49,761 nt of DNA from Candidatus Rokuibacteriota bacterium (GTDB taxonomy: Bacteria > Methylomirabilota > Methylomirabilia > Rokubacteriales > CSP1-6): the NCBI GenBank assembly GCA_003221515.1, contig QHSI01000130.1, positions 1-49,761 of the forward strand, given 5' to 3'. The position numbers and the translations under genes are program-made. Each line of letters starts with the position of its first letter. Position 1 is the first letter of the stretch. Positions 14,486 through 28,803 of the stretch are shown piece after piece. The notes beneath the pieces are model-generated. The model had not been told where the DNA came from. It was given only the letters and a program-made list of their open reading frames with translations, and ran no database searches.

Positions 14486-15523
14486 ATGGCGACGGTGCTC
14501 ACGTCCAAGCGACATCAAGTTCAGGCGACCAGCGACCCCGTCGAGTTCTGTTTCCAGCAGGGCTGGACCGACGGTCTTCCGGTGGTCCCACCCACGGCGG
14601 ATCGAGTGGGCGCGATGCTCGAGGCGGCGCGCCTGGCGCCGGGCAAGCAGATCGCGTTCGTCGAGCACCGGTCGGTGGCCATCACCGCCGAGAAGGTCGC
14701 CATCAACGCGGTCATGGCCGGCTGCAAGCCCGAGTATCTGCCGGTGGTCGTGGCGGCGGTCGAGGGGATCGGTGACCCGCGCTGGAGTTATCACGGGCCG
14801 GGGACGTCGACCGGCGGCGCCGGGGTGCTCATGATCGTGAATGGACCGATCGCCCGCGAGCTCGACATCAACGCCGGCGACAACCTGTTCGGACCGGGCT
14901 GGCGGGCCAACCTCACGATCGGGCGGGCGGTCCGTCTGGTGATGCGTAACGTCTGCGGCTCCTTGCCCGGCTTGCTCGATCGCGGGACGCTCGGACATCC
15001 GGGCAAGCTCTCGTACGTGATCGCGGAGAACGAGGCGGACAGCCCGTGGACCCCACTGCACGTCGAGCGCGGGTTCCGTCCGGAGCAGAGCACCGTCACG
15101 GTGATCGCGTCCGAGGCGCCGCACCAGTTCTACAACCAGCTCTCGCCGACCGCCGAGGGCGTGCTCACCACCCTCGCCGACTCGATGCGGATCTCGGGCA
15201 CCGTCATGGGCCAGTCCACCTACGCGGTGATCCTGGCCGGCGAGCACATGCGGACGATCGCGGGCAGCGGGTGGGGCAAGAAGGAGATCCGGCAGTTCCT
15301 CTTCGACCACACCAAGAACTCGCACGCGCACCTCAAGCGCACCCAGCGGATGGCGGGCGCCATTCAGGCGGCGGACGAGACCACGATGCGTCCGCTGGTC
15401 GCGAGCCCCGACGACATCCTCGTCGTGGCCGCCGGCGGCCGCGCCGGGGCCTTCTCGGCCTTCGTCCCGGGCTGGGGCAGCGCGAAGAACTCTCAGGCAG
15501 TCACCAAGGAGGTCAAACGATGA
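14486..15523 (+). CDS. conserved protein paired with the UGSC selenoprotein, function unknown
   Basis: I do not recognise an enzymatic family for this 345-residue protein, though its opening (GWTDGLPVVPP) and NAVMAGCKPEYLPVVVAAVE look strongly conserved. It is soluble, with no signal or membrane segment. It has three cysteines, Cys22, Cys80 and Cys157, the second in AGCKPEY. AAGGAGA lies before the ATG. Its stop overlaps the start of the UGSC gene (ATGA at 15520-15523), so the two are made together and are probably partners, for example redox partner or subunit. Confidence 0.8.
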   Translation: MATVLTSKRHQVQATSDPVEFCFQQGWTDGLPVVPPTADRVGAMLEAARLAPGKQIAFVEHRSVAITAEKVAINAVMAGCKPEYLPVVVAAVEGIGDPRWSYHGPGTSTGGAGVLMIVNGPIARELDINAGDNLFGPGWRANLTIGRAVRLVMRNVCGSLPGLLDRGTLGHPGKLSYVIAENEADSPWTPLHVERGFRPEQSTVTVIASEAPHQFYNQLSPTAEGVLTTLADSMRISGTVMGQSTYAVILAGEHMRTIAGSGWGKKEIRQFLFDHTKNSHAHLKRTQRMAGAIQAADETTMRPLVASPDDILVVAAGGRAGAFSAFVPGWGSAKNSQAVTKEVKR

Positions 15524-16050
15524 CCGAGCTCCTCGATCCCACCGTGGAAGCGGCGAAGCAGCCGATCGGCTACGTCGATCGACCGCACTCGCTGGCCGGC
15601 AAGCGCGTCGGGCTCATCGAGAACACGAAGTTCAACTCCGACAAGCTCCTGTTGAGAATCGGCGAGGTCCTCAAGGCGGAGTACGGCGTGGCCGAGACGC
15701 GCATGTTCCGCAAGCACAACTCGTCGGTGCCGGCGCACGACGAGATCGTCCAGGAGGTGCGCAAGACCTGCGACGTCATCGTCGCGGGCGTCGGCGACTG
15801 AGGGTCCTGCTCGTCGGGCAGTGTGCTCGACGGAATCCTGCTGGAGAAGAACGCGGTGCCGTCCGCCTCGATCATCACCGACGTGTTCGAGAAGACCGGA
15901 CGCGCGATGGCCGAGCAATGGGGCGTGCCGACCTACAAGTTCCTGATGATGCCGCATCCGATCGCGAACCTCACGGAGGCGGAGCTCGACCGCCGCGCGA
16001 GGGAGATCGTGCCGGAGATCGTGAAGCTGCTGCTGATAGGGCAGGCGTAG
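15520..16050 (+). CDS. UGSC-family selenoprotein (UGA at codon 94 read as selenocysteine)
   Basis: The reading frame from ATG 15520 meets an in-frame TGA at 15799-15801 and continues to TAG at 16048-16050, giving 176 residues. The sequence before it ends VIVAGVGD and the sequence after reads GSCSSGSVLDGI, so the product contains U-G-S-C, the motif that names this known selenoprotein family (first described from marine metagenomes). Homologs with Cys at this position also occur. A SECIS-like hairpin follows the TGA. A strong AAGGAGG (15505-15511) precedes the start. The fold looks alpha/beta; U/C94 and Cys97 form a CxxC-like redox pair. The reaction is unknown. Confidence 0.88.
15811..15833 (+). 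promoter_or_regulatory. bacterial SECIS-type hairpin for the UGSC gene
   Basis: TCGTCGGGCA (15811-15820) pairs with TGCTCGACGG (15824-15833) in ten consecutive pairs, two of them G-U, around the loop GTG. The loop begins with G and lies 19 bases after the UGA. This fits the published bacterial SECIS rules: apical loop 16-37 bases from UGA, with a G in the first two loop bases. Confidence 0.75.
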
Positions 16051-17045
16051 CGTCCGCGTTCCGGCCACCCTGGTGGTGCCGGAACGGCCACGTCCAGACG
16101 ATCTGGGGCCCGCTCTTCCGGCGCGACCGGCTGCGGTGGCGCCGGGAGCGGGTCGCCACATCGGACGACGACTTCGTCGACCTCGACTGGACGGTCGGCG
16201 AGGTGCGGCCGGACGCACCGGTCCTCCTGATCCTCCACGGCCTGGAAGGCTCCTCGCGATCGCACTACGCTGTCGGCCTCGCCCGCGAGGCGCTGGCCCG
16301 GGGCTGGCGGGCCGTCGTGCTGAACTTCCGATCGTGCAGCGGGGAGCTGAACCGCCGGCCGCAGTTCTACCATTCCGGCCACACCGACGACCTCGACGAC
16401 GTCGTCCGCGGGCTCGTCGCCCGTGAGCCGGCGACGCGTCTGGCAGCGGTCGGCGTGTCGCTTGGCGGCAACGTGCTGCTCAAGTGGCTCGGCGAACGGG
16501 AGGCGAAGGCGCCGGCGCAGCTCGTCGGTGCCGTGGCGATCTCGGCCCCGTTCGATCTGGTGCCGTGCGCCCGCGGGCTCGACCAGGGGCTACGCCGTCG
16601 CGTCTACACCGCGAACTTCCTCCGCACGATGCGGGCCAAGGCGGAGCGCAAGGCCGCCCGCGATCCCAGCTTCGCAACGCTCGTCGATCTCCAGCAGGCG
16701 CGGCACGCGCGGACGTTCGCCCAGTACGACCGCGCGGTCACCGCGCCGCTGAACGGCTTCGCCGACGAGATGGACTACTGGGTGCGCGCGTCCTGCGCGC
16801 CATACCTCTCGCGGATCCGACGGCCGGCCCTGCTCGTCAACGCGCTCGACGATCCGATCGTCCCGTCCGCGGCGTTGCCCGACCCGAGGACCCTCCCGCC
16901 GTGGGTGCGAGCCGAGTTCCTGGAGCGCGGAGGCCACGCGGGATTCCTCGAAGGCGGCTGGCCGTGGCGACCTCGGTCGTGGATCGAGCGGCGCGCGATC
17001 GAATTCCTCGCCCCGCTCGTCGCCCCGGGCGAGCGTCTCTGCTAG
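16047..17045 (+). CDS. YheT-family alpha/beta hydrolase
   Basis: The protein matches the YheT/ABHD1-3 group: FRPPWWCRNGHVQTIWGPLF at the start, ILHGLEGSSRSHY, the nucleophile elbow GVSLGGN, and GGHAGFLEGG with the catalytic His near the end. The family includes lipid or ester hydrolases. No ATG, GTG or TTG exists in frame near the start of the domain; the only in-frame ATG, at 15918, would overlap the UGSC gene by 133 bases. The domain fits a start at GTA 16047, which overlaps the UGSC TAG stop. AGGG lies five bases before it. Confidence 0.8.
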   Translation, partial: VASAFRPPWWCRNGHVQTIWGPLFRRDRLRWRRERVATSDDDFVDLDWTVGEVRPDAPVLLILHGLEGSSRSHYAVGLAREALARGWRAVVLNFRSCSGELNRRPQFYHSGHTDDLDDVVRGLVAREPATRLAAVGVSLGGNVLLKWLGEREAKAPAQLVGAVAISAPFDLVPCARGLDQGLRRRVYTANFLRTMRAKAERKAARDPSFATLVDLQQARHARTFAQYDRAVTAPLNGFADEMDYWVRASCAPYLSRIRRPALLVNALDDPIVPSAALPDPRTLPPWVRAEFLERGGHAGFLEGGWPWRPRSWIERRAIEFLAPLVAPGERLC

Positions 17046-26821: not shown

Positions 26822-27739
26822 ATGGACCTCCGCCGCATCGAGATCTTCGCGAAGGTGGCGGAGCTCGGAAGCTTCTCGCGCGCCGCCGAGGCGCTCTTCC
26901 TCACGCAGCCGACGATCTCCGAGCACATCCGCGCCCTCGAGGACGAGCTCGGCGTCCAGCTCCTCGACCGGCTGGGCCGCGGCGCCGCGCCCACGCGCGC
27001 CGGCGAGCTGATGCTCGGCTACGCCCGGCGCATGCTGACGCTGGCCCGTGAGGCGCGGCAAGCGCTCGACCAGTTCCAGGGCCGGATGAGCGGCCAGCTC
27101 GTCGTCGGCGGCTCCACGATTCCGGGGGAGTATCTGCTGCCGGGCCTGATCGGTCAGTTCCGAACGAAGTATCCGGACATCTCGATCTCGCTGCTGATCG
27201 GCTCGAGCCGTCAGGTCGCGACCTGGGTCGACGACGGCCGCGCCGAGGTTGGGGTGGTCGGCGCCCGTCCGGGACCCCGAACGCTGCTGGCGCGCGAGCT
27301 GATGGTCGACGAGCTCGTGGTCGTGGTGCCGGGCGATCACCCCTGGGCCGGGCGCAAGAGCGTGACCCTCGCCGACGTCAAGGGCGAGCCCCTGATCGTC
27401 AGGGAGCAGGGCTCCGGATCACGCGAGGCGCTCGAGAACGCCCTCGGCGAGGTGAGCGCCGACCTCTCGGCGTTTCGCGTCGTCAGCGAGATCGGCTCGA
27501 CGCAGGCCATCAAGCAGGCGGTGCGCTCGGGCGTCGGGATCACGCTGATGTCGCGGCGGGCGGTCGAGGACGAGTGCCGGGCGAGGCTCCTGGCGTGCGT
27601 GAAGCTCAAGGACCTCAAGGTGTCGCGCTCGTTCTACCTCGTGATCCACCGAGAGCGGAGCCGCTCGCCGCTGGCGCAAGCGTTCGTGGAGTTCGTGGAA
27701 TCCCAGATGCCCGAGCGGGCGTCCCAAGGGCACCAATGA
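26822..27739 (+). CDS. LysR-family regulator, probably selenium metabolism-associated
   Basis: The 305-residue protein has an N-terminal winged helix (VAELGSFSRAAEALFLTQPTISEHIR-like) and a type 2 periplasmic-binding-like effector domain. A LysR subgroup is known next to selenium genes; here it overlaps selD as ATGA at 27736-27739. That suggests control of, or by, selenium status, but no ligand or target site can be read directly. Confidence 0.85.
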   Translation: MDLRRIEIFAKVAELGSFSRAAEALFLTQPTISEHIRALEDELGVQLLDRLGRGAAPTRAGELMLGYARRMLTLAREARQALDQFQGRMSGQLVVGGSTIPGEYLLPGLIGQFRTKYPDISISLLIGSSRQVATWVDDGRAEVGVVGARPGPRTLLARELMVDELVVVVPGDHPWAGRKSVTLADVKGEPLIVREQGSGSREALENALGEVSADLSAFRVVSEIGSTQAIKQAVRSGVGITLMSRRAVEDECRARLLACVKLKDLKVSRSFYLVIHRERSRSPLAQAFVEFVESQMPERASQGHQ

Positions 27740-28803
27740 CCGAGCACACGCATACGGAGGTCCGGCTCACCTCGTACGCCGCCTGCGCCGGCTGAGCGTC
27801 CAAGATGGCTCCTGGAGATCTCCAGGAGGTGTTGGAAGTGCTCAAGCCGAGCGGGAGCCCGCCACCGCGCGACCTGCTGGTCGGGCTCGGCGCGGCCGAC
27901 GATGCCGCCGTGTACCGCATCGGCGCCGACGTCGCGATCGTCGAGACGGTCGATTTCTTCCCGCCGGTCGTCGACGACCCGTGGACGTGGGGCGCGGTGG
28001 CGGCGGTCAACGCGATGTCCGACGTCTACGCCATGGGCGGCGAGGTGATGTTCGCGCTCGCTATCGCCGGCTTCCCGCGCGAGATGTCGAAGACGATCAT
28101 CGCGGGGGTGTTTCGGGGCGGGCGCGACAAGGTCGCCGAGGCGGGCGGCGTGATCGCCGGCGGGCACACGGTCGTCGACGCCGAGCCGAAGTATGGGCTC
28201 TGCGTGACGGGGCGCGTCCACCCCGACCGGATCCTCATCAAGGGCGGATTGCGCGCGGGCGACCGCCTCTTTCTGTCCAAGGCGCTCGGCACCGGCGTGA
28301 TCACGACCGCGGCGAAGAACGGCAAGGCGAGCGACGACGTCCTGGCCGGTGCCATCGCGAGCATGCTGCGGCTCAACCGGGTGGCCGCCGAGGTCGCGCG
28401 CGACGCCGGCGCTAGAGGCGCCACCGACATCACCGGGTTCGGGCTCCTGGGCCACGCCGGCGAGATGGTCAAGGCCTCGCGCGCGGGGCTCGCGATCGCA
28501 GCGTCTCGGCTGCCGCTCCTGCCGGGGGCTCGCGAGCTGGCGGAGGCCGGCAGCTTCAGCGGTGGGATGAAGCGCAACCGGCGGTACGTCGACTCGGTGT
28601 TCGGTGCCGCCTTGCAGATCGATCGCGGGATCCCTGACGACCTGGTCTCGATGCTCACCGAAGCCGAGACGTCCGGAGGCCTCCTCTTCTCGGTCGCCCC
28701 CGGCCAGGCGGACTCTGTGATCGACGCCTTCGGCCGGCGGGGCGAGGAGTGCTGGGAGATAGGCTCGGTCTTGGCCGAGCCCGTGATCCGCGTTACGACC
28801 TGA
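27736..28803 (+). CDS. selD: selenide, water dikinase SelD, itself a selenoprotein (UGA at codon 20)
   Basis: From ATG 27736 the frame meets TGA at 27793-27795 and then continues to 28803, giving 355 residues with Sec20 in the motif CAG-U-ASKM. Cys or Sec is normal at this spot in SelD. Later motifs are LGAADDAAVY, TVDFFPPVVDD, AVNAMSDVYAMGG and ATDITGFGLLGHA. The enzyme makes selenophosphate from selenide and ATP, the donor for Sec-tRNA. Starting at ATG 27805 instead would remove the catalytic residue. A SECIS-type hairpin follows the TGA. Confidence 0.94.
27809..27828 (+). promoter_or_regulatory. bacterial SECIS-type hairpin for selD
   Basis: CTCCTGGA (27809-27816) and TCCAGGAG (27821-27828) form a perfect 8-bp stem around the loop GATC. 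The loop starts with G and lies 21 bases after the UGA, within the spacing and loop rules of bacterial SECIS elements. SelB would bind it to direct Sec insertion. Confidence 0.78.

Follow-up and report, generated by a model that had tools for sequence, protein, structure and literature searches.

A UGSC-family selenoprotein gene in a soil Rokubacteria-type bacterium and its predicted role in a two-protein, thioredoxin-coupled reductase related to GrdB

The window analysed, a DNA stretch of 49,761 nucleotides, represents contig C150 of a Rokubacteria-type MAG with a genome size of 5.1 Mb, and the host is a soil bacterium. The forward strand contains a UGSC-family selenoprotein gene of 176 aa (15520..16050), which runs for 93 codons from the ATG at 15520 to an in-frame TGA at 15799-15801, and continues for 82 codons before the stop TAG at 16048-16050. 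The TGA, assigned to selenocysteine at codon 94, is the only interruption of the frame. A Shine-Dalgarno-like sequence, GGAGGT, is located ahead of the start codon at 15508..15513 (+). The codon at 15808..15810 (+) encodes Cys97, which closes the UGSC motif as its invariant last position and is the proposed resolving thiol; it is followed by a bacterial SECIS hairpin at 15811..15833 (+), with the stem at 15811-15820 and 15824-15833 and the apical loop GTG at 15821-15823. A partner gene coding for 345 aa, with the motifs GWTDGLPxxPP and NAVMAGCxPEYxPV, occupies 14486..15523 on the same strand, and its stop TGA overlaps the ATG of the UGSC gene by 4 bp (ATGA). The Sec-machinery gene selD (27736..28803, +), itself coding for a selenoprotein (MTEHTHTEVRLTSYAACAG-U-ASK; AACAG-U-ASK) with its TGA at 27793-27795, sits 12 kb from the UGSC gene.

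The initial annotation had viewed the reading frames on both sides of the TGA as one conserved protein, and this was borne out by the read-through product, in which the PF24696 (UGSC) match spanned residues 3-171 across the TGA with an E-value of 1.8e-57 (194.7 bits, cut-off 25); NF041046 was matched at 143.8 (cut-off 125). The window protein corresponds to the family over its full length, with Sec in the UGSC position and the SECIS directly after the UGA. The read-through motif is Sec94-Gly-Ser-Cys97, as had been stated for the UGA-encoded residue in front of G-S-C, and the Sec or Cys together with the second Cys were invariant in 50/50 aligned separate UGSC proteins. The expected products of routine gene calling, pieces of 93 and 75 residues, are those of the plain ORF list, which cuts the gene in two, with 93 codons on the 5′ side starting at ATG 15520 and 75 aa on the 3′ side at 15823-16050. 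The naming of the family from marine metagenomes agrees with the 2008 survey (PMC2398784), although the relative frequency of the family reported there was higher in samples of non-marine origin. The literature on the family (PF24696/NF041046) assigns a Trx-like fold and gives no function, and the earlier remark that its reaction is not known agrees with a 2026 review (PMC13188914). In the Rfam scan, an ALIL pseudoknot was matched only below threshold at 15963-16071 (22.7 bits, gathering 50), probably by chance, and a scan of viral contigs found no relative.

For the decoding of the UGA, the initial annotation had asked for selA, selB and selC in the same genome, and had named their absence, or homologs with a true stop, as evidence to the contrary. 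All three genes were identified, in addition to selD; the tRNA-Sec (selC) scored 69.8 bits, over the Rfam gathering threshold, and the best selD match of the genome, which scored over its cut-off, is the one inside the window. The same genome contained five UGSC paralogs, all of which had a single TGA within the matched stretch; the motif was D-U-G-S-C in four and H-U-S-T-C in one. The family was present in 72/95 genomes of the phylum, in 4-9 paralogs per genome in this genus and up to 12 in the family, and every copy listed from the 72 genomes had exactly one TGA, at the same codon. Among the copies listed from the 95 phylum genomes, no homolog with another stop at codon 94 was seen.

Named relatives of the Sec type belonged to Rokubacteria, Entotheonella/Tectomicrobia, SAR324/Lambdaproteobacteria and Binatota, and those of the Cys type to Actinobacteria and one Burkholderiales MAG; haloarchaea also carry the Cys form. 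The search for Cys-containing homologs, another of the proposed checks, returned 30 loci with Cys aligned at codon 94. A SelA match was obtained in 13/13 Sec-UGSC genomes searched (one of these a contig-edge piece) versus 10/23 Cys-UGSC genomes, with a one-sided Fisher p of ~5e-4, computed by hand and with kinship ignored. Alternatively, the TGA could be a true stop, whether between two separate genes, within a pseudogene or through an error in sequencing, and the automatic annotations of, for example, Paracoccus ferrooxidans and Acidovorax sp. T1 do split such genes, but this is highly improbable in view of the identical TGA codon in all listed copies of the 72 genomes, the Cys found at that codon, the constraint on the SECIS described below, and the complete Sec machinery of the genome. 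In the Paracoccus ferrooxidans pFER4 record (L219:8411-8980), a Sec UGSC gene with SECIS is annotated as two hypothetical proteins; it lies directly before the partner gene, between selA and selB.

The hairpin had been described as a 10-bp stem with the loop GTG, located 19 bases after the TGA. Stem and loop were recovered as described, but the 19 bases are the distance from the TGA to the loop, and the stem starts 9 nt after the TGA. The outermost of the 10 pairs is T-G, and the position just 3′ of the UGA and the G in the first loop positions (GTG) are those of bacterial SECIS elements. In the GC-rich gene set, folding energy of the post-UGA segment relative to synonymous recodings did not separate Sec from Cys genes, and since folding energy alone was uninformative, a register-specific stem test was used. 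With the loop fixed at +19 nt, a stem of at least 6 bp was present in 53/54 Sec genes versus 4/30 Cys genes, the latter encoding a similar peptide. When the window peptide was recoded synonymously, a 10-bp stem in this register arose in 1.9% of cases. In 36 orthologs, the major-codon frequency was 0.985 in the stem codons versus 0.773 outside, a conservation reached by 0/20,000 random sets of outside codons. In a comparison that did not include the divergent H-U-S-T-C paralog, each of the six different Sec stems kept inner pairs 1-6, with compensating changes at two pairs (pair 2 as C-G or G-C; pair 4 as G-U, A-U or U-A).

The prediction of a bacterial SECIS therefore passed the register, synonymous-constraint and covariation tests, by which measure the hairpin at 15811-15833 is a real SECIS. 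Sequence comparison likewise confirms the predicted role of the UGA at 15799-15801 as the codon of Sec94, directed by this hairpin and by SelA/SelB/SelC/SelD. In the divergent H-U-S-T-C paralog (L034:9275-9574 region, contig C160 of the same genome) the post-UGA hairpin is weaker and bulged, and its partner has Ala replacing a conserved Cys. The Burkholderiales Cys copy grouped among the Rokubacteria Sec copies in the tree, although on a long branch, which fits a Sec-to-Cys change; distant paralogs on long branches have an unsure placement in this tree.

The 345-aa partner returned no significant Pfam or NCBIfam match, and comparison of partner members with Pfam gave only E-values of 0.004 or weaker, discordant between the members. 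Relatives of the partner adjoin all five UGSC paralogs of the genome, and the partner was adjacent to UGSC in 73/79 named loci; it precedes UGSC in 45 Sec loci and in a single Cys locus, and follows it in 27 actinobacterial Cys loci. The 71 phylum genomes containing the partner all fall within the 72 having UGSC, and it was found in none without UGSC. Fusions of the two proteins were identified in one copy of the same genome (C164), on plasmid p2-T1 of Acidovorax sp. T1, and in Variovorax boronicumulans. On the basis of this association, UGSC and the 345-aa partner are best explained as a two-protein module, of which UGSC is the small and presumably catalytic half.

The fusion on the Acidovorax sp. 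T1 IncP plasmid p2-T1 (L217:8380-10878) is of the Sec type, and its SECIS stem has 8 bp and keeps the register of the others; annotation in the record goes no further than the TGA, and the partner C-terminus seems to continue into transposase sequence. A fusion of UGSC to a conserved domain, Unknown_1, is reported in the 2008 survey (PMC2398784), and that domain is possibly the partner described here. A sixth partner homolog of the same genome (L035:9690-10712, contig C1) has no adjacent UGSC and lies near apparent cell-shape genes. Cys80 of the partner was considered as an essential catalytic residue and discarded, since Ala occupies this position in some copies. The structural model of the partner had a pLDDT of 87, with low confidence in the conserved segments around residues 107-109 and 164-174, as might be expected of loops for binding or at an interface. 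Its structural matches were to class I fumarases and cyanuric acid hydrolases, all weak, of low TM and not convincing (best VIA Z 7.0).

The motif pattern of UGSC, xxxU-G-[ST]-C ... GIPxxxI ... HPxxN, resembles that of selenoprotein B of glycine reductase. When all UGSC subfamilies were compared with the C-terminal Sec domain of GrdB/PrdB by hhalign, with the Sec column masked, the probability was 95.4% (E 1.7e-8) and Sec was aligned on Sec; this is a profile-profile comparison with modest sequence sets and profile depth. The first comparison with a narrow profile, Sec masked, was weak (15%), and the probability grew with profile diversity, from 15-61% for narrow sets to 93% and then to 95.4%. 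The best of 33 control families reached 12%, in a control set from which cluster 0, the partner ORFs, was left out because its mechanical ORFs overlap UGSC. No direct match of Pfam GRDB (PF07355) to UGSC was obtained, PF24696 being the only model listed up to E 1. The GRDB matches end at position 347 and do not reach past the Sec, and judging from these match ends, the link may have been missed earlier because the Pfam model stops at Sec.

Four PF07355 proteins were found in the same genome (C107:16209, C101:45074, C94:7006 and C93:18125), all truncated at the UGA by the plain ORF call and selenoproteins when read through, with the Sec motifs TSTUGTSTRCG, TSTUGSCNRGG, VATUGTCNRCG, and a short form, VPSUPVC. 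GrdE-like neighbours lie beside three of the four genes, the fourth being the short UPVC form, and in these genomes they accompany most full-length GRDB genes. The short, PrdB-sized UPxC selenoproteins (C93 and relatives) matched UGSC at 88% with Sec masked. They share with UGSC the genomes and a Sec in the equivalent domain, but are direct GRDB relatives (99.6%) with a longer N-terminus, and the UGSC-type partner was not found in their loci.

The likeness of UGSC to GrdB/PrdB (PF07355, TIGR04483) extends from Sec-x-x-Cys and the downstream GxP and HP motifs to the presence of a second subunit, the occurrence of trxB/trxA in part of the operons, and paralog sets, which in the case of UGSC are probably substrate-specific. 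In contrast to GrdB/PrdB, UGSC is missing the N-terminal half and is without a direct Pfam match, its partner is not GrdE-like (0.1% by hhalign against the GrdE profile), and its carriers include many from groups with a known aerobic lifestyle. Judging from the profiles, we take UGSC to be distantly homologous to the Sec domain at the C-terminus of GrdB/PrdB, rather than a member of glycine reductase.

The AF2 model of UGSC (mean pLDDT 91, pTM 0.85) had an alternating beta/alpha arrangement with five strands; a helix follows the third of these, and Sec94 sits directly in front of that helix. The folds matched, with modest scores, were those of flavodoxin, lumazine synthase and receiver proteins and others of Rossmann-like type, no GrdB/PrdB structures were among the matches listed, and sequence searches of the PDB returned no convincing relative of UGSC or of the partner. 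These data bear on the 2008 proposal that UGSC is a general Trx-like thiol/selenol oxidoreductase acting on disulfides or peroxides, with the partner as its redox client. In line with this proposal, the N-terminus of a helix carries the UxxC motif, three loci have trxA/trxB as neighbours, and UGSC is listed as Trx-like in the 2008 survey (PMC2398784) and the 2026 review (PMC13188914), but the model is five-stranded with flavodoxin/Rossmann-like matches, the profile reached 0.3% against a small thioredoxin/TlpA profile versus 95% against GRDB, and the neighbouring genes are catabolic rather than of oxidative stress, which together make it quite unlikely.

Fusions of a UGSC-like domain with the partner in Sporomusa termitida (L224:7320-9044) and on a Vibrio europaeus plasmid (L225:7401-9086) have D-M-G-T-S where others have D-U/C-G-S-C, and both are located near aconitase X and DUF126 genes. 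Neither Sec/Cys nor the second Cys is present in these fusions, so that the fold can serve a purpose outside redox chemistry, and they show that part of the UGSC superfamily does something else. They would also be compatible with a domain which mainly binds substrate or presents it to the partner, Sec/Cys being one option among others; for the family at large this is very unlikely, against the invariance of Sec/Cys and the second Cys in the separate proteins and the strong selection on Sec and its SECIS.

Thioredoxin genes accompany the module in several Cys-type copies, from which the association derives; none were found beside it in the window or in those loci of the Sec lineages that were examined. 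On a plasmid of Arthrobacter sp. ERGS1:01, trxB, trxA, partner and UGSC follow each other in a row with a 4-bp overlap between trxA and the partner, the gene order in Roseovarius sp. THAF8 is partner-UGSC-trxB, and in Variovorax sp. SRS16 trxB is four genes ahead of UGSC. The TrxB proteins of these three loci all exceeded the NCBIfam TIGR01292 cut-off. In Variovorax boronicumulans, a TrxB-like protein containing CxxC is more distantly related, and in a Phytoactinopolyspora locus trxA and trxB lie ~1-2 kb from a partner paralog. Glycine reductase (grd) clusters likewise carry trxA/trxB (PMC6311696, PMC2897892), and the enzyme uses thioredoxin (PMC10298544).

In actinobacterial loci, the neighbours included an NDMA-dependent alcohol dehydrogenase (25/29), oligopeptide-type ABC transport genes (23/29), a second Zn-dehydrogenase (22/29), Amidohydro_2 (20/29), aldehyde dehydrogenase (19/29) and IclR (17/29). 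Amidohydro_2 and LLM oxidoreductases were common in Binatota loci, and TTT/TRAP transporters, CoA transferases and lyases in haloarchaeal and proteobacterial loci. Within the host genome, paralog C71 is near a LigB dioxygenase, and paralog C160 near a group of Amidohydro_2, amine oxidase, CMD and CaiB genes. The neighbourhood, judged from raw gene content, points to uptake and catabolism of organic acids. Phosphosulfolactate synthase-like genes lie near UGSC in Arthrobacter (L215:6725-7513) and Natrinema (L218:5847-6314), a possible hint of a sulfonate or sulfur substrate.

With this setting, UGSC could also be a selenol peroxidase or detoxification enzyme, protecting the neighbouring catabolic pathway from peroxide, a metalloid or an electrophile. 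Sec with a resolving Cys would suit such chemistry, and the carriers, including cultured actinobacteria, Roseovarius and haloarchaea, belong mostly to aerobic groups; however, the near-obligatory large partner, the fusions and the up to 12 paralogs suit a substrate-specific enzyme better, and the homology is with a substrate-reducing selenoprotein, so that this role appears unlikely.

The preferred reading, to which we assign a probability of about 0.6, is that the module is a GrdB-like reductase which is coupled to thioredoxin and works with a partner other than GrdE, the genuine selenoprotein with Sec94 included. By analogy with GrdB/PrdB (PMC10298544) and the proposed fluoroacetate reductase (PMC10838667), the partner would hold a carboxylic-acid substrate, and the Sec94 selenolate would attack its electrophilic carbon and displace a leaving group by C-N, C-S, C-halogen or C-O cleavage. 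Cys97 would then cleave the Se-substrate adduct to give a Sec94-Cys97 selenenylsulfide, from which thioredoxin and thioredoxin reductase would regenerate the pair. Unlike in glycine reductase, the partner would be non-GrdE and presumably non-pyruvoyl, and Cys copies would carry out the same reaction via the thiolate. The substrates probably differ between the UGSC paralogs.

A close comparison is the candidate fluoroacetate C-F reductase FarBE of Synergistota, a GrdB-like pair without pyruvoyl cysteines (PMC10838667). It shares with the UGSC module a GrdB-like selenoprotein, a second subunit that is non-pyruvoyl, presumably so in UGSC, and a proposed C-X cleavage, but FarE is a GrdE homolog, FarB is a GrdB homolog, and the hosts are anaerobic. 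In relation to the existing UGSC literature, the tie to GrdB/PrdB and the near-obligatory partner with alternative gene orders are new, and so are the trx-coupled operons, the paralog multiplication and the catabolic context.

The cultured carriers and the catabolic neighbours suggest that the module works in aerobic organic-acid catabolism. At somewhat less than even odds, it would represent a class of selenium reductase in its own right, driven by thioredoxin and composed of a minimal GrdB-type Sec domain and a non-pyruvoyl subunit, acting in aerobic organic-acid catabolism with substrate-specific duplicates, and spread over Rokubacteria, Binatota, SAR324, Entotheonella and proteobacterial plasmids, and with Cys over actinobacteria and haloarchaea.

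The known setting of Grd/Prd chemistry is the anaerobic fermentation of amino acids, and if a relative acts in aerobic catabolism, the known range of selenium enzymes would be wider. The case also exposes annotated records in which such genes are broken at the UGA. With its ties to GrdB/PrdB, to a partner and to thioredoxin, an 18-year-old orphan family becomes a testable enzyme, the Cys version of which is carried, with trxB beside it, by cultured strains of Arthrobacter, Roseovarius and Variovorax.
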